A DNA stretch of 64,000 bases. Source: Candidatus Marithrix sp. Canyon 246 (GTDB taxonomy: Bacteria; Pseudomonadota; Gammaproteobacteria; Beggiatoales; Beggiatoaceae). The notes beneath the pieces are model-generated. The model worked only from the letters and a program-made list of their open reading frames with translations. It was not told the DNA's origin and did no database searches. The translations under genes were made by a program, and so were the position numbers. Shown here piece by piece: positions 7,098-17,650 of this stretch (its first letter is position 1; each line of letters opens with the position of its first letter). The stretch is from assembly GCF_001723685.1 (NCBI RefSeq), contig NZ_MCBX01000013.1, positions 1-64,000 of the forward strand, given 5' to 3'.

Positions 7098-7108
7098 ATG
7101 TGTGATAC

Positions 7109-7225
7109 TTAATTACGAAATTTTTTATCCCAAAGATACATCACAAACACCACCACAAAGCCAAATAGCATCATTAACAAGGCATAAGTGACATTCTAAT
7201 TTCACATTTCTGGTAAATAAGGTGT
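7109..7225 (-). pseudogene. Duplicated 3' fragment of the DUF368 gene
   Basis: These 117 bp align without gaps to 7881-7997, the 3' end of the intact DUF368 gene, with about seven mismatches. They would encode the last ~39 residues of that protein, with no start. The fragment lies upstream of the PKD gene and ends at a palindromic repeat (7223-7245). It is dead DNA left from a duplication that also copied the end of the PKD gene. Confidence 0.85.
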
Positions 7226-7276: not shown

Positions 7277-7526
7277 TTAGTTATAATGGTAACGACATTG
7301 CACAATGATTAGTTCATCGTTGGAAAAAGTATATATCAAACGATGTTCATCAGTAATACGACGTGACCAAAAACCATTAAATTGATGTTTTAATTGTTCC
7401 GGTTTACCTAAACCAGTAAATGGTTCACGCTGAATATCCTTAATCAAAATATTAATCCTTTTCAAAATTTTCTTGTCGTTGCCAATATAAGTAATCTTGC
7501 CAAGCTCGATCACGAAAACAAATCAT
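7277..7526 (-). pseudogene. yoeB: YoeB-type mRNA interferase toxin, frameshifted
   Basis: YoeB cleaves mRNA in the ribosomal A site. The expected start ATG (7526-7524) overlaps the antitoxin stop as ATGA and gives MICFRDRAWQDYLYWQ, the normal YoeB N-terminus. That frame then hits a stop. The rest of the protein (NDKKILKRINILIKDIQ through GFWSRRITDEHRLIY to CRYHY) is in the next frame. The total span is 250 bp, which is not a multiple of three, so one extra base or two missing bases near 7475 break the gene. Catalytic-region residues, including the C-terminal RYHY, remain. A sequencing error is the alternative. Confidence 0.8.
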
Positions 7527-7783
7527 AGCGTTTCGACTAATTCATGTGATGTCAAATTTTTACGCATATTAATTTCTTCAACTGCTTCTAGCAAGTCTTT
7601 AGCATTAGCACTAGAGCGGGTTAAATAGCTTGTTTCTTGCCAAGCATTAAAGTCATCTAAACTCATAATTACTATCGGTTTATGATGCTCATCAGTTACG
7701 ACCAATGGTTCATGATTATCATTAACAGCATCTATCACGCTCCATAAATCTTGTGCCGCTTCATTTAATGTCATTGCTTGCAT
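7523..7783 (-). CDS. yefM: YefM/Phd-family antitoxin
   Basis: The 86-residue protein has the Phd/YefM fold signature: N-terminal MTLNEAAQDLWSVIDAVNDN, then EPLVVTDEHHKPIVIMSLDDFNAW. It should bind YoeB through its C-terminus and repress its own promoter. A clear AAGGAG precedes the ATG. It is intact although its toxin partner is frameshifted. The stop overlaps the toxin ATG as ATGA. Confidence 0.92.
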   Translation of the reverse strand: MQAMTLNEAAQDLWSVIDAVNDNHEPLVVTDEHHKPIVIMSLDDFNAWQETSYLTRSSANAKDLLEAVEEINMRKNLTSHELVETL

Positions 7784-7826: not shown

Positions 7827-7871
7827 AGTTAGCGATTACTTAAAACAATTTCCGCAATAGCAAAATTTTAT
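7823..7871. repeat. Second copy of the PKD gene 3' end
   Basis: About 49 bp from CTACAGTTAGCGATTAC onward match 5154-5202 with a few substitutions. The original covers the last codons and stop of the PKD gene; here no PKD frame remains. It joins directly to the end of the DUF368 gene. Confidence 0.8.
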
Positions 7872-7880
7872 TTTTTAAAA

Positions 7881-8786
7881 TTAATTACGAAATTTTTTCC
7901 CCCAAAGATACATCACAAACACCACCACAAAGCCAAATAACATCATTAATAAGGCATAAGTGACATTTTCATTCCACATTTCTGGTAAATAAGGTGTAGA
8001 ACTAATTAGACGTTCTTTTTCGTGAACTTCTATATATGTGCGGTGTTGAAATGGCCATATTATCCATAATGATCCTATTAATATACCTATTATGATTTGT
8101 AAAGTCGCTGCATAATATTTTTGTAATAGCCAACCCAAAAATCTACTGAAGACTATTAATCCAGCTAAAACTCCGAATCCAAAAGGTACTAAAATCATAA
8201 AATTAAAATGACCAATCGCGTTTAATATTGTATCATATTTGTGTAATACCAATAAGATAAAGGAGCCAGATATGCCCGGTAAAATCATAGCTGTTATCGC
8301 TATCATGCCGCTTAGAAATATAAATAATGGTGTATCTGGTGTAGTCACTGGAACTAAAGTTACTATAAACAATCCAGATATAGCTCCAATACTAATAAAA
8401 AACATAGCACCAAAGTTAAATTTTTCTATTTCTGCTGATAAAGTTACTATTGATCCAATGATAAGCCCAAAAAATAGTCCATAAATAGGTTCTGGATGTG
8501 TATGTAATAACACAGGTAATGGAATTACTCGTGTGAAAAATAATAATGCGCAAAATAGTCCGATTACTAATGGAATTATAAATGCAAAATGTGGCTTTTC
8601 TAAAGCTGGTTTTATTTCAAATTTGATTACATGTTGTAACCAAACTAAATCAAAAGAACGAATAGCATCAATTAATTGTCTATAAATTCCTAAAATAAAA
8701 GCCATTGTGCCGCCACTAACTCCGGGAACCACATCGGCTGCTCCCATGCAAAATCCTTTAGCGGCTAAAATTACTTTGTCAATCAT
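7881..8786 (-). CDS. DUF368 membrane protein (PopT-type undecaprenyl-phosphate translocase)
   Basis: A 301-residue polytopic membrane protein with the DUF368 opening GFCMGAADVVPGVSGGTMAF and a second GISGSF motif near the middle, the two inverted-repeat signatures of the family. Members called PopT return undecaprenyl phosphate from the outer to the inner face of the membrane for cell-wall and polysaccharide synthesis; assignment of that activity to this protein is inference. The gene is followed upstream by hemE on the same strand with a 16-bp gap. Its 3' end exists as a relic copy at 7109-7225. Confidence 0.88.
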   Translation of the reverse strand: MIDKVILAAKGFCMGAADVVPGVSGGTMAFILGIYRQLIDAIRSFDLVWLQHVIKFEIKPALEKPHFAFIIPLVIGLFCALLFFTRVIPLPVLLHTHPEPIYGLFFGLIIGSIVTLSAEIEKFNFGAMFFISIGAISGLFIVTLVPVTTPDTPLFIFLSGMIAITAMILPGISGSFILLVLHKYDTILNAIGHFNFMILVPFGFGVLAGLIVFSRFLGWLLQKYYAATLQIIIGILIGSLWIIWPFQHRTYIEVHEKERLISSTPYLPEMWNENVTYALLMMLFGFVVVFVMYLWGKKFRN

Positions 8787-10444: not shown

Positions 10445-10720
10445 TTATGCTTGCAGTGTGTTGTTATGAATATTTTTATGCGCATCACAGGGAATAGAAA
10501 AACCAGCAACCGATACTGGGCGTGTGATAGCAAAACTTTGGCGATGAAGCTTTATACGTTCTATCTCATATAATGTTTCTGCTGTTAAGTAACTTTCTCC
10601 ACAATGTTGGCAAGTCATAACGGGAATATTTTCAATTACTAATAAATTTTCCCCTTTGCCATAACTGCGTGTCATCAGATGGGTGTGTACGCCTTCTTCA
10701 TTGCATAAGTCACATTTCAT
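10445..10720 (-). CDS. YgiT-type zinc-finger antitoxin (MqsA N-terminal-like)
   Basis: A 91-residue protein with two CxxC pairs: CDLCNEEG at residues 3-6 and CQHCGE near 37-40. They are separated by VIENIPVMT, the MqsA/YgiT zinc-binding pattern. MqsA-type proteins neutralise a partner toxin and often repress their own operon; the HTH half of full MqsA is absent. It follows the DUF4258 gene by 18 bp on the same strand, which is the usual pairing. Confidence 0.85.
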   Translation of the reverse strand: MKCDLCNEEGVHTHLMTRSYGKGENLLVIENIPVMTCQHCGESYLTAETLYEIERIKLHRQSFAITRPVSVAGFSIPCDAHKNIHNNTLQA

Positions 10721-10738
10721 AATTTTTTCCTTGTTATT

Positions 10739-11020
10739 TTACAATAGGAATACGGTAATAATAACCAATTTGCCAGTTATACTTAACTTACTCACCACAA
10801 TGATCTTATTATGAGTTAAGGTATAGCCTTTAATAAGGTATTTCCATTCCCCTATTTTATGCTCTTTTTGCCGTTCAACAATTTCACCAGTGAGTATGGC
10901 ACGTTCGACATCAAAAATTGTCAGTTCATCATTGTCCATTTCTTCTTCAGCATGTAGAGTCATTATATACTGACGGCTTCGGATTTTTTCCTGCATCTGT
11001 TTTAGAATACGTTCAAACAC
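10739..11020 (-). CDS. DUF4258 putative toxin
   Basis: The 93-residue protein has the DUF4258 pattern: an early YIMTLHAEEEM, then DVERAILTGEIVERQ, and the late KLSITGKLVIITVF. DUF4258 genes sit directly before YgiT-type zinc-finger genes and are regarded as the RelE-fold toxin half of such pairs; that is family knowledge, not shown here. The gene appears intact. Its upstream region is the 89-bp repeat at 11031-11119, so it shares promoter DNA with the CaCA exchanger gene that lies 6.7 kb away. Confidence 0.8.
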   Translation of the reverse strand: MFERILKQMQEKIRSRQYIMTLHAEEEMDNDELTIFDVERAILTGEIVERQKEHKIGEWKYLIKGYTLTHNKIIVVSKLSITGKLVIITVFLL

Positions 11021-11030
11021 AATATATATA

Positions 11031-11119
11031 ATCTTTCTTAGTTTGTTTTATAATTATAAGATTTATTTTTATTCTTAGCAGAGGTATTTTGTGGATTCAT
11101 TGACATTAGTTTTATTTAT
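11031..11119. repeat. 89-bp direct repeat, left copy, bounding the acylation cluster
   Basis: Matches 17670-17758 over 89 bp with two substitutions. The right copy holds the leader, the AGAGG site, the GTG start and the first codons of the CaCA exchanger gene. This left copy has the same start and codons but no gene behind it; the match ends where the cluster begins. The pair therefore marks the ends of an insertion of about 6.55 kb. Confidence 0.92.
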
Positions 11120-11256
11120 ATTTCCATATATCTAAAAACTCCAGATTCTGGAGCCGCTAATAAAATGGTAGCAATGATCAATAAAAAATAAATCAATACA
11201 ACCGTTACTGCTGCTACATTTTCTGGCATAAAGTTCATTAAGTAGTTATAAAGCAT
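11116..11256 (-). CDS. DltX-like one-helix microprotein of the acylation cluster
   Basis: A 46-residue frame starts at an ATG (11256-11254) preceded by a strong TTTGGAGGATAATA site, 2 bp after the MBOAT stop. It has a short N-terminal amphipathic part, one transmembrane helix (about residues 13-34, VAAVTVVLIYFLLIIATILL), and the tail PESGVFRYMEI. The ending F-x-Y-x-E-[FI] matches the conserved C-terminus of Gram-positive DltX, whose tyrosine carries the acyl group from DltB to DltD. The position beside MBOAT, SGNH and ligase-ACP genes supports the same role. Its stop codon lies in the 89-bp repeat, so the last residue may have been set by the recombination. Homology is by motif and context only. 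Confidence 0.7.
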   Translation of the reverse strand: MLYNYLMNFMPENVAAVTVVLIYFLLIIATILLAAPESGVFRYMEI

Positions 11257-11258
11257 TA

Positions 11259-12383
11259 TTATCCTCCAAATATAAGACGTTGATAATTTTGGATTATATC
11301 TTGTGAACGTGTGATTTCAAATCCTAATATCACAAAATTAAAAGTTATTAATACTGAAATTATTTTAATAATCCACAGCATTATAACGCGATCTTTATAA
11401 TAATTTTCAATAGTTTGCCCAAAGCTATTGGTAAATTTATAATAAACTACTAAACCAAGAGCATGATAGCCTCCCCACAGCAGGTATCGAAATGATAATT
11501 CATGCCATAAACCAATTCCTATCATGGTAGCTACAATAGCTAATTGGTGATTTCGTGTTAGTGATGCAACTGGTTGATAAATGTAAGAGCGGCACCAGTC
11601 AGATAAACTGATATGCCAACGTCGCCAAAATTCCGCAATATTAGTGCTTAAAAAAGGATTATTAAAGTTTTCATTGAGACGAAAACCTAGCATTAGGGCT
11701 AATGCAATGGCAATGTCAGTAGCACCAGAGAAGGAAAAATATAAATGAAAACCATATTGAAGGGATAGTAGATATTCAGCCAATCTTGGATAATCTGCTT
11801 CAATTGTAGTTATGAAATTCATAATCTTTCGATTAAATAAATAATCTGCTAGAATAACTAATTTTGCATATCCCCATATTAAACGTTCCAGTGCTAAAGA
11901 TATTATGGATTTATCAAAAGTCTGACGTTGCCAATCTGATTGGAATTCTTTATAACGATGAATTGGTCCAATTAAGAGAGAAGGAAAAAACATTAAATAT
12001 GCAAATAGCATATCGGTGGATATTTTGCCTAAATGTCCCTTATAATTTTCCATCAGAAAATGGATTGCCTTGAGAAGATAAAAAGCTAAACCGATTAATA
12101 TAATTATATTATTTGATGGTAAGGCACGGTAAGCTATAAAGATTAATATAAGGATTATTATTCCCCATAAGCCATGTATCAATCTGTTTGCAGGAAAGCG
12201 TAAAGCAATTAAGGTTAATATACTGATAATGACCAGCATTATGGCAGAAATCCATGAAAAAAACGAAAGTATTAATCCACTGCCAATTGAAAGATACCAT
12301 AGTCGCCAAATTCTTGGTACAAGCCAATATCCTATAATTAATATGCTTGCTAAGATTAAGTATAAAGGATCAAGTAGATTCAT
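11259..12383 (-). CDS. MBOAT-family membrane O-acyltransferase (DltB/AlgI-like)
   Basis: MBOAT proteins pass acyl groups across the inner membrane. The 374 residues hold about ten hydrophobic segments. Family signatures are FFPSLLIGPIHRY (near 135), FSFSGATDIAIALALMLGF (near 216), NPFLSTNIAEFWRRWHISLS (near 243) and GIGLWHELSFRYLLWGGYH (near 285), carrying the two conserved histidines. At 374 residues it is close to DltB and shorter than AlgI. It overlaps the SGNH gene by 14 bp and is followed by the microprotein, so the operon reads ligase, SGNH, MBOAT, microprotein. The acyl group and acceptor are unknown. Confidence 0.9.
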   Translation of the reverse strand: MNLLDPLYLILASILIIGYWLVPRIWRLWYLSIGSGLILSFFSWISAIMLVIISILTLIALRFPANRLIHGLWGIIILILIFIAYRALPSNNIIILIGLAFYLLKAIHFLMENYKGHLGKISTDMLFAYLMFFPSLLIGPIHRYKEFQSDWQRQTFDKSIISLALERLIWGYAKLVILADYLFNRKIMNFITTIEADYPRLAEYLLSLQYGFHLYFSFSGATDIAIALALMLGFRLNENFNNPFLSTNIAEFWRRWHISLSDWCRSYIYQPVASLTRNHQLAIVATMIGIGLWHELSFRYLLWGGYHALGLVVYYKFTNSFGQTIENYYKDRVIMLWIIKIISVLITFNFVILGFEITRSQDIIQNYQRLIFGG

Positions 12384-13224
12384 GAATTAATTTCAATATA
12401 CGTTCACGAAGCCAAGTAGAATATTTAGCTCTACCAGCTTCATTAAGGTGACTATTATCACAATATTTTTCGGAAGTAAGTTTATCTGGGTAAACAATTA
12501 GTGGTAAATTAAGTTTTTTTGCCAAAGAATTAACTAATTTTCGCCATCTATCTAAGTCTGAGGCAAGAGCGCGTTCCATTTGATCTGCGCGAGGAATATC
12601 TACTAATACAATTCTTATTCCTTGATTTTGTATATTTTTAATCCATTCAATAACATTGACAGAAATAGGGATAGAATTTCTATAATATTTCTGAAGTGCT
12701 TTTACTTTCTCTGACTTAGGAGAACCATTATAAATATGACCACAATTTTGTTTGTATATTTTTTCATTTTTTCCAATTAAATATTTGATAAAAAATTTAA
12801 TTTTGGTACGTACTTGACGTGCTTTTTCCTGCCATATTTTTGGTTTTAATTTCTTCATTAGCAATAAATCTGTCTGTAGCACTAATATTGTAGTTTTTTT
12901 TCTTAAAGCTATATCTAAATAAGGTTTTATTTTTCTAAAATCAGCTCCTGAAACTGCTAACAAAAAACTATATACATCAGATCCCAAGGCATCCGACGCT
13001 AACCATGCAGCATTTCTCATTAATGAGTTACCAGCTAATATAACTAATGCCTTTTTATTTTCTTCTAAGTTTTTAAAAGTATTTAAATAAATCTGTTCTT
13101 GCCAAAGTTTATTTTTGTTATCTATCCAATCATCAATAACTAATGAATAAACTATTAATACTAAGCATAATAATCCTAATATCCACCACCATAAATATAT
13201 TGGCATTCCGCGAATTTTACTCAT
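12370..13224 (-). CDS. Membrane-anchored SGNH-type acyltransferase (DltD role)
   Basis: A 284-residue protein with an N-terminal membrane anchor (WWWILGLLCLVLIVYSLVI, residues 12-30) and a periplasmic SGNH-like domain. The nucleophile block is ILAGNSLM near residue 65 and the C-terminal catalytic block is CDNSHLNEAGRAKY near 255, giving the Ser...Asp-x-x-His arrangement of DltD and AlgX/AlgJ-like enzymes. The family usually moves an acyl group to a sugar or polymer outside the membrane after an MBOAT delivers it. It overlaps the ligase-ACP gene by 8 bp and the MBOAT gene by 14 bp, so tight coupling is likely. It is shorter than DltD (about 390-420). Confidence 0.75.
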   Translation of the reverse strand: MSKIRGMPIYLWWWILGLLCLVLIVYSLVIDDWIDNKNKLWQEQIYLNTFKNLEENKKALVILAGNSLMRNAAWLASDALGSDVYSFLLAVSGADFRKIKPYLDIALRKKTTILVLQTDLLLMKKLKPKIWQEKARQVRTKIKFFIKYLIGKNEKIYKQNCGHIYNGSPKSEKVKALQKYYRNSIPISVNVIEWIKNIQNQGIRIVLVDIPRADQMERALASDLDRWRKLVNSLAKKLNLPLIVYPDKLTSEKYCDNSHLNEAGRAKYSTWLRERILKLIHEST

Positions 13225-14977
13225 CCATTTTTTCCTGAACTAAACGGATCACATCATTTAGCCGTTCAATTGACATCATTTCACGAGCTGTAAAGCTAAT
13301 TTTATAATGTTTTTCAACAGCTAGAATTAGTTGAAGATGTCCTAGAGAATCCCAGCCCAATGTAGTTTCTGGACTACTGTCACTTGACAGTGTATTGGTA
13401 TCTACCTTAAACATATCCGTAGCTAAATGAATTATTTTAAATGATATATCTGGACTATCACCCTTTTCTTTACGCTCTTCACATATTTTTTGTAATGTTT
13501 GAAGAGCAACTTTTCCAGAAGGACCTCGTGGCAGACTATCAAATTCAAAAATATAATCAGGATGCTTATATGTTGATAGCTTACTAGCATAAAAATTCTT
13601 TAAATCCAATTTATTAAATTCTGTAGAAGTCACAATACAAGCAATTACTTGTTCTTCCATTTCTGGATTAGCTAAGCCTATCACTTCACATTCACAAACC
13701 TCTGGGTGCTGCAACAATACATCTCTAATTTCTTCAGGGCTGATATTTTCACCGCCTTTGATAATTACATTTTTCAAACGACCAACTATTGAAATAAATC
13801 CTTTATCATCTATAGACGCTAAATCTCCTGTGTGAAGCCAACCATCTTTTAAAACCTCTAATGTTGCTTTTGGATTATCTATATATTCTTTAAAAAGCAT
13901 ATTGCCGCTAACAATTAATTCGCCAGCACTACTTATCTTTATTTCAATACCATTTAAAACCTTACCAACTGTGCCTTTACGATCATCAGGACCACAAATA
14001 GAGATAGCCATGCTGGTTTCCGTGAGTCCATAAATATTACAAATACGAACATTAAATTCATCTTCAAATAGTTGCCATAACTCATTGTTCAATGGACCAG
14101 CGGTTGATATAACATATTTAAAAGTTTGCCATTGAAATAATTCTGCCGCTTGATCTTTAATACGATTAAAATAGGATAAAATAACTGGAACCGTTATAAA
14201 ATGAGTGACTTGTTCACGATACAATTCGCCAATAAAAGCATCTATATTGGTAAAACTAAAAGGCTTTGAACGAACCAAAGTTGCGCCATTAAACAAAGTA
14301 AGAATTGGACCATGTAATAGTCCGTCAGCATGATGAAGGGGCAAGGCATTATGTATTCGATCTGAAGATGAATAATGCATATGTTGCGAAATAGCTTTAA
14401 TATTACTCAGTATAGCATCCAATGATAATAAAATAGCTTTTGGACGGCTAGTTGTACCCGACGAAAACAATACAAGCCCTGATGTATCAGACTGACGAAT
14501 ATCTGCTATACCATTGATTGAATCAAGAATAGAAGGATAATTATCTTCATGTTCTGTTACACGTTTTCTCAATAGTTTTTTTAGTAACTTAGCCTTTTTT
14601 GGTCTTGAATTAACCAATAATAATGGAAGCGACATTTTAGTGAAATTACTATCGCGTTCTGTACAAATCCAATTCGGTTTTACTATATCAATTAAGATTT
14701 CAGCCTCATACTGACTAACTTTAGGATCCGCAACAATAACAACTGCACCAGCTCGCCATGCGCCTAAACAAAGTTGAACAAGTAAACGATCATCATTAAC
14801 CGCTAAAAATATTCGTTCTCCAGCTTTAACGCCTTGTGACTCATACCATATTTGAGTTTTAGCAGTTATTTCTAAGAAATCGCCATAATTAAGCTTTTGA
14901 CCATCATTTAGCCAGTAAATATGTTTTGGTGAGTTTTCATATGCTTTTTGAAAAAGTGTCAATAATGGATTACTCAT
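13217..14977 (-). CDS. Adenylate-forming ligase fused to an acyl-carrier protein (DltA+DltC roles)
   Basis: Residues 1-500 are an ANL ligase: core loop VLFSSGTTSRPKAILLS (A3), NIYGLTETSMAI (A5), GWLHTGDLASID (A7), GRLKNVIIKGGENISPEEI (A8) and LPRGPSGKVALQTL with the A10 lysine. The last ~70 residues are a carrier domain with ETTLGWDSLGHLQLI, where the serine would carry phosphopantetheine. The enzyme should activate an acid with ATP and load it on its own carrier, like DltA loading DltC. Its ATG overlaps the TGA of a frame at the end of the upstream gene, and its 3' end overlaps the SGNH gene. Substrate cannot be read from the sequence. Confidence 0.88.
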   Translation of the reverse strand: MSNPLLTLFQKAYENSPKHIYWLNDGQKLNYGDFLEITAKTQIWYESQGVKAGERIFLAVNDDRLLVQLCLGAWRAGAVVIVADPKVSQYEAEILIDIVKPNWICTERDSNFTKMSLPLLLVNSRPKKAKLLKKLLRKRVTEHEDNYPSILDSINGIADIRQSDTSGLVLFSSGTTSRPKAILLSLDAILSNIKAISQHMHYSSSDRIHNALPLHHADGLLHGPILTLFNGATLVRSKPFSFTNIDAFIGELYREQVTHFITVPVILSYFNRIKDQAAELFQWQTFKYVISTAGPLNNELWQLFEDEFNVRICNIYGLTETSMAISICGPDDRKGTVGKVLNGIEIKISSAGELIVSGNMLFKEYIDNPKATLEVLKDGWLHTGDLASIDDKGFISIVGRLKNVIIKGGENISPEEIRDVLLQHPEVCECEVIGLANPEMEEQVIACIVTSTEFNKLDLKNFYASKLSTYKHPDYIFEFDSLPRGPSGKVALQTLQKICEERKEKGDSPDISFKIIHLATDMFKVDTNTLSSDSSPETTLGWDSLGHLQLILAVEKHYKISFTAREMMSIERLNDVIRLVQEKMDE

Positions 14978-17650
14978 ATATAATCTACCTCAATCTCTCC
15001 TAAAGAAATACCAACAATATCACGCATTTTTGTTATTATATTGTTTGCCAATGCCGAATTTTACATTTGGTAATGCTTCTTTTACTTCAGATTCAAGCGC
15101 ATTTAAATATAATATTTCACCATTTGGCAAATTTATTTGATCATCCTTTCGTCCTAATAATATAATGTCACCATTTTGTTCTTTATAACCAAAATCATTG
15201 GTATAAAACCAACCAGAATTAATTTCCTTAACACCATCATAGTCAGAGCAATATTTTTGCATGAGCTGATCTGAGAAAACGCGAATTTCTCCAATTTTTT
15301 CATCTGTATTCTTAACAATATCAATTAAGGCACCCACCGGCTTGCCGATACTTGCTGAATTGGAATGTTCCTTATTTACAGTGCAAATACCACCAGTTTC
15401 TGTTAAACCATAATAAGTTCCAATATCAATAGAAAATTTATCTTTAAGACCATCATTTATTGATTTAGAAGCTCTAGCACCTGTAATTAACCAAAGTTTA
15501 AGACTGGAAAAAGTATGTTTAGATAAACGATCTTTTAGACCATAGATAATTTTAGCTAAAATTGGTGTACTCACTAAAGTATCAGGATGATATTGTTGAC
15601 ATAGTTCAATCAAAGTTTGTGCTGAATTTTTGACTGGAATATCTGGCAATATAATTTCTACATTTGCTACAAACCCTAATACCGCAGCATTTCTCAAACC
15701 ACTCATTGTATGAAAGCCACCTAAACCTAGAAACCTCGAACCAGATATTAAATTAAAATTTGCTGCAAGTTTGCTGGCACCACGATATAATGCAGAAAAA
15801 CTATGTACCACACCTTTAGCTTTTCCAGTGCTACCAGATGTATATAAGATAACAGCAGTTTCATAATCCGCATATCGCGGTTTAATATTGCGTTCTTGCG
15901 TCAAATAGTCACTTAGATACTTATAATCTTGTTTAAAGTTTGACTCAGAAAGTGGATCAAAATGTATTATCAAATCCGATTGATATGGAATAAGCTCTGA
16001 ATTATATTCCAAGAATAATGCTTTAGGTTTGACTTCTTGAAGAACTTCAACTTTTCTCGTTTCTGACCATTCATGACAGATTGGCACGGCTACCAAACCT
16101 GATAACCAGCACGCCCATATAACTAACAAATATTCAGGATGAGGTGGAGAAATAATGGCAACATTATCACCAACATTTAATCCTTCAGCAACTAGAAAAG
16201 CATTGATTTCAAGTACAATTTCTCGCACATCATTCCAGCTAAATTCTTCATCATGGTAGGCACTAATCATAATTGATGGATTCGATTTATTACTTTCCAT
16301 TAGTTGCCACAAATCAGAAAACTTACCGCTACGATATACAGGATCCATGATTTGTAGTGTTGAATAAAAATTCTGCAAATCAAACATAGCATCAGATACA
16401 GAACTAATAAATCCAATATCACGTTCCTGTAAAGAAAGTGCATATTTAGCTGTTTCATCAAAATCTATTTGGCATTTAGACGAAGTTTCACCAAGACTTA
16501 ATCCTTGTTGTAAACAAAAAAGCACTTGGCGTTCTCTATCACTCAATTGATATGGAAAATGCTTACTGATGTAGTTATAGTACAAAGGATGTCTTGACAG
16601 CAAATACTGACAATGCCCTGCTAAATTGCTAGAACTGATCTTGACATTAGAAGAATTTAAGTCAACATCCAGTAATGGATTAATTAAAAAATGTGAACTT
16701 GGTTTTATATCAATCCTAGCCCAACGACTTGGATATAAATAGAGTTTATCTTGCCCAACAGGTGCTATATATAGTAAAGCGTTATAATGTGACATATCAG
16801 GATCATCTTGAGCTTCTTCTACATTTTTAAGTTCAAAAAGATGTTGTTCTGATAATAAATAACTCTTTCTATTTATAGGTTTAAGTATTCGATCCAGATA
16901 TTTTCGGTAATGATTACCATGATACTGAATACATCCTCTATCAAAATATGGAGATGGTTCGCTATTTGTGAGATGGATATGAGGAAATACTAAAGCAGCT
17001 GATTTTTTTGCAACACGCAAACATTCTCCTATGAGAGGAGAATGGCTATAACGATGAAATGTATCCAATCCATGAATTAAACCAAAAAAGTTATCTTTAA
17101 ATGGTAAACCTTTTTCAATATCCAAAAAAATAACATGTAGATTTGAGGACCTTTTTTTTAACCAATAACAATATCCATGATAACCCAAGACATTTTTATT
17201 ACCTTCCCACACCATAAATATAGGATTATCAGGAAATAATGAAGCCAATAATTCGCCAGACCAACCAGTGCGCCCCCATAAATCTAAAATAGGAACTTTA
17301 GGCTTTATTTGTTGAGCTATATCTTTTAAAAGGGGAAATAATGCGCGAGTTGATTCATTAAAGGGTTGAAATGCTGCATAAGAATCAAAGACTGATTTTT
17401 CTTGTTTTATAAAATAGCTATAATCAGGCAAATTACCCCAAAAATTTTTACGCAGTTGATCATAATCAGATTGAATCTGATCAATAAATAATTTTCCTTC
17501 AGTAAAAAATAAAAATCCATCTAATGACGGAAACCCCACACCACATTTTGGACAAACAAAATGACCAGTGTCTTTATTGAAGCCATACCATTTTAAATTT
17601 TCTCGACATGATAAGCATAAGAATGTTGGTTTTACATTATTTTGATACAT
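14974..17650 (-). CDS. Zinc-ribbon/methyltransferase/adenylate-forming ligase fusion, frameshifted near its 3' end
   Basis: The uninterrupted frame is 15020-17650 (876 residues). Domains: a zinc ribbon with C12, C15, C33 and C36; a class I SAM-methyltransferase-like domain (~100-270; motif I-like LDLWGRTGWSGE); a helical linker with a LuxR-like LSDRERQVLFCLQQGLS stretch; then an ANL ligase (~430-876) with VILYTSGSTGKAKGVVHS and GTYYGLTETGG. The frame ends soon after the A8 hinge without the A10 lysine. In the +1 frame the DNA from about 15060 continues as NNIITKMRDIVGISLGEIEV and stops at 14974-14976, overlapping the next ATG as ATGA. That coupling suggests the ancestral end lay there and that a frameshift arose near 15060. 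It may modify or supply the acid for the carrier. Confidence 0.7.

Follow-up and report, generated by a model that had tools for sequence, protein, structure and literature searches.

The open reading frame at positions 11116-11256 on the minus strand of the window (the whole 64,000-nucleotide stretch of DNA analysed here, part of the 3.24 Mb draft genome of Candidatus Marithrix sp. Canyon 246) is a real gene of a conserved kind. It encodes a microprotein of 46 amino acids and lies last in a set of five close genes. Our preferred reading, to which we give a probability of about 0.83, is that the microprotein acts as the acyl shuttle of a carrier-dependent MBOAT-SGNH system, Dlt-like in build and housed in a Gram-negative host. 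Central to this reading is a survey of MBOAT loci: an MBOAT that lacks the C-terminal tyrosine motif nearly always has that motif on a neighbouring microprotein.

The microprotein gene and its cassette

The features of the cassette, all on the minus strand, are as follows.

11116..11256 (-), stop included: DltX-like microprotein gene, 46 aa, one membrane helix (frame and relatives)
11119..11136 (-): C-terminal motif F41-R-Y43-M-E-I, with Tyr43 the proposed acyl carrier (Tyr invariance; known motif FXYXXF)
11263..11267 (-): GGAGG ribosome-binding site, 6 nt upstream of the microprotein ATG and within the last MBOAT codons
11259..12383 (-): DltB-like MBOAT, 374 aa, without the C-terminal motif, ending YQRLIFGG (profiles, fold)
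11613-11615 and 11502-11504 (-): conserved MBOAT histidines His257 and His294, respectively (alignment)
12370..13224 (-): SGNH-like transferase with an N-terminal helix, 284 aa; candidate Ser67, Asp256 and His259 (weak Pfam GDSL match, weak model)
13217..14977 (-): AMP-forming ligase fused to an acyl carrier domain, 586 aa (Pfam)
15020..17650 (-): second AMP-forming ligase of this operon, with a weak N-terminal methyltransferase-like part, 876 aa (Pfam)

The genes run in the order ligase, ligase/ACP, SGNH, MBOAT, microprotein, and the last three junctions either overlap or leave at most 2 nt between neighbours. Indeed, the microprotein ATG (11254-11256) lies just 2 nt past the MBOAT stop codon (11259-11261). 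The translated frame, MLYNYLMNFMPENVAAVTVVLIYFLLIIATILLAAPESGVFRYMEI, has a single hydrophobic stretch and the tail F41-R42-Y43-M44-E45-I46. A first-pass annotation of this DNA had described a short frame with a GGAGG site directly after the MBOAT stop, encoding one helix and the tail FRYMEI; the translation bears this out, and fixes the gene at 11116-11256(-) and 46 aa. The MBOAT, SGNH and ligase-ACP neighbours are likewise as it claimed, with the second AMP-ligase gene (15020-17650) additionally preceding the ligase-ACP gene. Since there are few charges at the N-terminus of the microprotein, the topology of its helix is not fixed by flanking charge alone.

A frame comparable to this one (at least 40 aa, a start within 12 nt, a hydrophobic stretch and a tail of the same kind) arose in 15 of 200,000 first-order Markov sequences built from the same stretch. 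Stronger evidence for a gene than this chance estimate comes from recurrence beside the MBOAT and from selection in relatives. Two pairs of related microproteins are under strong purifying selection, with dN/dS near 0.1, as measured on these relatives, the window gene itself being without a close one. For G003 and G406 the microproteins gave a dN of 0.053 and a dS of 0.473, close to the values of 0.041 and 0.403 for their MBOATs; for G012 and G425 the microprotein values were 0.156 and 1.98, a dS near 2 being saturated.

Elsewhere in the window, just downstream of the microprotein gene, 10445-11020(-) encodes a DUF4258 protein together with a small one that weakly resembles MqsA, below cut-off; the two are probably another toxin-antitoxin pair. 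Further along, a YoeB-YefM toxin-antitoxin pair (7277-7783) is flanked by a 128-nt direct repeat (7098-7225 and 7870-7997; 91% identical). Since the second repeat copy spans the 3' end of a VCA0040-like gene, this module seems to have been inserted there, with the gene end rebuilt or copied.

Predicted partner proteins

The window MBOAT is DltB-like in both sequence and predicted fold. It belongs to the MBOAT superfamily (PF03062; 89.7 bits against a cut-off of 27), with the conserved histidines and the fold, and its nearest family is DltB (TIGR04091), at a score of 157.2 bits that lies below the equivalog cut-off of 375. The only PDB entries matched by sequence represent two distinct DltB sequences, and the three best fold matches of its model (pLDDT 89.5) are DltB as well, with a TM-score near 0.75 when normalised by query length. 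All 28 aligned MBOAT rows share His257 and His294, which correspond to the histidines of RWH and WHG in DltB.

Support for the SGNH assignment is less strong than for that of the MBOAT. The protein scores 16.5 bits with Pfam GDSL, under the cut-off of 32.9, and a phmmer search of PDB returned one chance match. The candidate residues S67, D256 and H259 are common to the G012 protein, although the histidine is not retained in a three-row alignment. Fold matches of the model, itself weak (pLDDT 63), are mainly TesA, GDSL lipases and sialate O-acetylesterases; the best is a designed scaffold, and DltD appears at E 0.04 to 0.13. No relatives of the SGNH-like protein were found in viral contigs.

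Both ligases are recognised by Pfam AMP-binding, the 586-aa protein at 152.5 bits together with PP-binding at 21.3 bits (cut-off 20.8), and the 876-aa protein at 156.4 bits. In the latter (15020-17650(-)) the ligase domain is preceded by a methyltransferase match, at 13.4 bits and under cut-off, and by a weak LuxR-like match, an unusual fusion.

Related loci and gene orders

Searching with the MBOAT, and not the microprotein, as query yielded nine further Gram-negative loci, ten with the window, in which a motif-less MBOAT adjoins a short helix protein ending F/Y-x-Y-x-x-x. They fall into three gene orders. In order A (ligase, ligase-carrier, SGNH, MBOAT, then microprotein) the window is joined by G012, with the tail FIYWDH, and G425, with FIYWDN, so that a short frame right after the MBOAT stop is present in both other same-order genomes found. 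Pfam reported no carrier domain in the G425 ligase at E 0.01; its tail shares an LGHLNLI stretch with the protein of G012. A radical SAM/SPASM-type gene lies 3' of the microprotein in G012 (L028 177-1184(-)) and G425 (L114 9615-10568(+); Pfam-tested in L114), and not in the window.

Order B, SGNH - microprotein - MBOAT, comprises G003 (FRYQGF), G406 (FRYQVF), G401 (FLYQAF), G476 (FRYAGF) and G262 (FRYQNF). All five clusters contain a discrete carrier gene, and the PP-binding cut-off was passed by the four tested (G003, G401, G476 and G262). For the ligase and decarboxylase of G003, the likeness is to two exosortase-A-associated families, TIGR03098 (547 bits, cut-off 592) and TIGR03099 (389 bits, cut-off 478), and the G003 carrier matches DltC weakly (29.1 bits, cut-off 68). 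Wider stretches of G401, G476 and G262, judged by eye, hold a ligase-like gene too. A decarboxylase accompanies the carrier in four of the five clusters and was not seen in G401. BtrJ-BtrI-BtrK chemistry provides a model for what this pairing might mean, and our guess is that it hints at an amine-bearing acyl group in these clusters. Order C, MBOAT - SGNH - microprotein, was found in G438 (FIYVSF) and in a Flavobacteriales MAG, L040 (YLYIDF); in neither did the stretch read contain a carrier or ligase.

The tail motif

When nine of the Gram-negative microproteins (without G262) were aligned with the DltX of contig L073, only Met1 and the tail tyrosine were invariant across the ten rows. The tyrosine remained invariant after G262 and two DUF5989 proteins were added, in line with the conservation that had been predicted for it. 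The phenylalanine two residues before it is kept in all rows except L040, which has tyrosine. The pattern first proposed, F-x-Y-x-E-[FI], was too narrow, the common ground being F/Y-x-Y-x-x-x at the very end of the protein. FXYXXF is a known motif (PMC12148441). The three closest cassettes all depart from it, because their tails end in Ile (window), His (G012) or Asn (G425).

A similar tail occurs in DUF5989 (PF19451), a protein of about 50 aa built from RKK, a helix and a C-terminus whose FxYxxF ending is as in DltX (for example FIYTLF). The tail [FL]xYT[LMV]F was present in 25 of the 25 loci listed (sites: G000:C11:167815-167958, or L147 9810-9962; L122 to L146; L028 6482-6634), and the family occurs in 41 of the 150 phylum genomes searched. 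Its gene adjoins a carbamoyltransferase gene (Pfam-tested in L148) and, in G425, also that of a GDSL-like protein. The name DUF5989 was absent from the open-licence literature searched. DUF5989 may be another tyrosine shuttle.

The motif nearly always lies on the MBOAT or on a neighbouring microprotein

The survey covered 136 MBOAT loci, all retrieved through their similarity to the window MBOAT or to DltB, with G003 and G406 near relatives. These gave 127 frames once those shorter than 300 aa, or with their last 200 residues repeating another's, had been dropped; broader stretches duplicating these loci (L028, L029, L034 to L038, L039, L084, L114 to L118, L121, L180, L181) were left uncounted. 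The motif was defined as [FYWLIMV]xYxxx at the very end of the protein. An earlier pattern, which needed a hydrophobic last residue, had missed FIYWDH, seen by eye, and was then widened; similarly, a hydrophobicity limit of 1.6 was relaxed to 1.0 once the G476 microprotein, also seen by eye, had failed it. Both final settings were applied alike to all frames.

By this definition 114 of the MBOATs end in the motif themselves and 13 do not. A microprotein with the motif lies beside 11 of the 13 motif-less MBOATs, compared with any fitting nearby frame at 5 of the 114 motif-bearing ones (Fisher p 1.4e-10, or 9.5e-10 without the window, treating as independent loci that are not so). In the first version of the survey, with 101 frames, the corresponding figures were 10 of 11 and 5 of 90. 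The same scan caught the positive control, a DltB on contig L073 with a Pfam-recognised DltX (57.2 bits), which is among the 11. Within the window's own genome, three other MBOATs carry the motif in cis, ending FLYFNF, FLYFQF and FLYFQF. As for the two motif-less MBOATs that had no microprotein, the contig end truncates L173, which resembles the cis type in that its frame runs on past one stop to EFLYFNF. The other, G435 (L087; L121 3815-5482), has none within 2 kb and is the one unexplained exception; its MBOAT frame, of 555 aa, has an extra N-terminal part and is preceded by an SGNH-like gene.

AMP-ligase DNA was found near 6 of the 13 motif-less MBOATs and 1 of the 114 motif-bearing ones, most loci extending 1.5 kb to each side. 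In unrooted trees made by a quick method without bootstrap, and with several long branches, the motif-less MBOATs lay on one side of one branch, with SH-aLRT support of 99 (101 rows) and of 96 to 98 (75, 74, 74 and 73 rows). This places the window MBOAT on the side of DltB.

Likeness to DltX

The first-pass annotation had called the microprotein DltX-like. As regards design and context this stands, but sequence homology to DltX was not detectable. The microprotein matches no family in Pfam or NCBIfam, and Pfam DltX (PF12459) gave no match to it at E up to 1; it is not a member of that family. The same profile was positive in the controls, Bacillus subtilis and Lactococcus lactis, and found nothing in 299 genomes of the phylum, the window's own included. 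Comparison of the nine Gram-negative microproteins with real DltX by hhalign gave a non-significant probability of 7%, and phmmer with the G003 microprotein returned only chance matches from PDB. PMC5541007 mentions in passing a DltX of Gram-negative species that shares the topology but no sequence similarity; the same source counts dltX in 809 species, 805 of them Firmicutes. Judged by function, the microprotein shares with DltX the single helix, the C-terminal F-x-Y and the invariant tyrosine, and differs in ending in Ile in place of the final Phe of FXYXXF. Its gene context also agrees, with a DltB-like MBOAT, an SGNH protein (under the Pfam cut-off), a ligase and a carrier adjacent. The reading that the protein works like DltX is supported.

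Proposed mechanism and alternatives

In the mechanism that we envisage, the ligase would, to judge by its domains, activate a carboxylic acid and load it onto the fused carrier domain. By analogy with DltX and PatA, for both of which PMC12148441 describes acyl transfer to the motif tyrosine, the microprotein tail would enter the MBOAT channel from the periplasmic side, and at the cytoplasmic face the MBOAT would receive the carrier's acyl group and transfer it to Tyr43. From there the group would move to the SGNH serine and on to some periplasmic or surface polymer.

The alternative that survives best, though we consider it unlikely, is a true but diverged D-alanylation (Dlt) system that acts on lipopolysaccharide and includes DltX as such. 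The MBOAT is indeed closest to DltB, the G003 carrier has its weak DltC match, and Gram-negative dlt genes exist: PMC3544676 reports dltBAC and dltD in Dickeya, and a polymyxin-sensitive dltB mutant of Dickeya dadantii. Against this, the window MBOAT falls well short of the DltB equivalog score (157 of 375 bits), and the ligase is matched best by general ligases of the fatty-acyl, oxalyl and malonyl kinds, none reaching its cut-off, with DltA absent among the 25 of 117 NCBIfam families and the 33 PDB sequences listed for it.

Slightly less probable still is that the microprotein is a structural subunit holding the MBOAT and SGNH proteins together, its tyrosine binding without being acylated while the acyl group goes to another acceptor. 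DltX too holds DltB and DltD together (PMC12148441). However, beyond the start Met the tyrosine alone is invariant among otherwise divergent proteins, the motif sits on the MBOAT itself wherever no microprotein was found (114 of 127), and, by the same source, the tyrosine of this motif is acylated in PatA.

We rejected the idea that the two genes are broken halves of one MBOAT gene, a frameshift having detached the final helix and its motif. The 2-nt spacing and the presence of the motif at the end of most surveyed MBOATs would suit such an origin, but gene order contradicts it: the microprotein precedes the MBOAT in five loci and follows the SGNH gene in two. Moreover, in G012 and G425 this gene is likewise separate and has a start codon of its own, and motif-less MBOATs group apart from the others, so that we give this origin very little weight. 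A chance frame without function, for which its shortness and lack of a Pfam or NCBIfam family might speak, is scarcely credible and was rejected given its recurrence beside motif-less MBOATs, dN/dS near 0.1 in two relative pairs and the 15 in 200,000 random sequences.

Distribution and significance

The cassette has a patchy distribution. Within the genus, the MBOAT of the one other genome is of the motif-bearing type only, and among 369 genomes of the class the window alone passed 1e-40, G262, of the same class, being found later with the DltB profile. In the order of G425 (78 genomes) the cassette occurs in G425 only; at 1e-58, that order and the order of G476 (48 genomes) yielded no further motif-less MBOAT except G435. 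Across 296 genomes of Bacteroidota only the starting genome matched its MBOAT at 1e-45, and 84 plasmid records gave partial matches, none covering more than 80% of the query. This patchiness suggests horizontal transfer.

We recognised no description of these cassettes in the open-licence literature on DltX, MBOAT microproteins and exosortase. On balance, we lean towards the view that they represent a separate Gram-negative class, in Pseudomonadota and Bacteroidota, of carrier-dependent MBOAT-SGNH systems with an acyl-tyrosine microprotein, reaching beyond D-alanine and with DUF5989 as a further branch; such a class would have escaped notice because its shuttle gene is too small, and has diverged too far, for annotation. 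If so, the split Dlt design, with the tyrosine on its own tiny protein, serves Gram-negative envelopes and groups beyond D-alanine. This would contradict the statement, in a 2025 paper (PMC12148441), that non-Dlt MBOAT pathways have neither a DltX-like microprotein nor a similar carrier. A practical annotation rule follows, that a short partner gene is to be expected near any MBOAT lacking the C-terminal motif, and the natural tail variants (Ile, His and Asn ends) should be useful for testing how the MBOAT and SGNH proteins read the tail.

Comparison with known systems

The closest counterpart in design is DltX of the Gram-positive dltXABCD operon, likewise about 40 to 50 aa with one helix and a C-terminal F-x-Y, and likewise adjacent to genes for a DltB-like MBOAT, an SGNH protein, a ligase and a carrier. 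The window gene differs in that it follows the MBOAT gene, whereas dltX precedes the ligase gene; its ligase and carrier are fused, its tail ends in Ile, its host is Gram-negative and no profile match links the two. The dltBAC and dltD genes of Dickeya, Pectobacterium and Photorhabdus share with the window a Gram-negative setting and genes for DltB, ligase and carrier (PMC3544676); they differ in being described as D-alanylation genes, and a DltX of such species receives only a passing mention (PMC5541007). Finally, MBOATs of the PatA/AlgI type carry the motif on the MBOAT itself, with two more helices, an acyl-CoA donor, no microprotein and a separate branch in the tree, yet they have the same motif and, according to the published PatA work (PMC12148441), the same acyl-tyrosine chemistry that we propose for the window microprotein.
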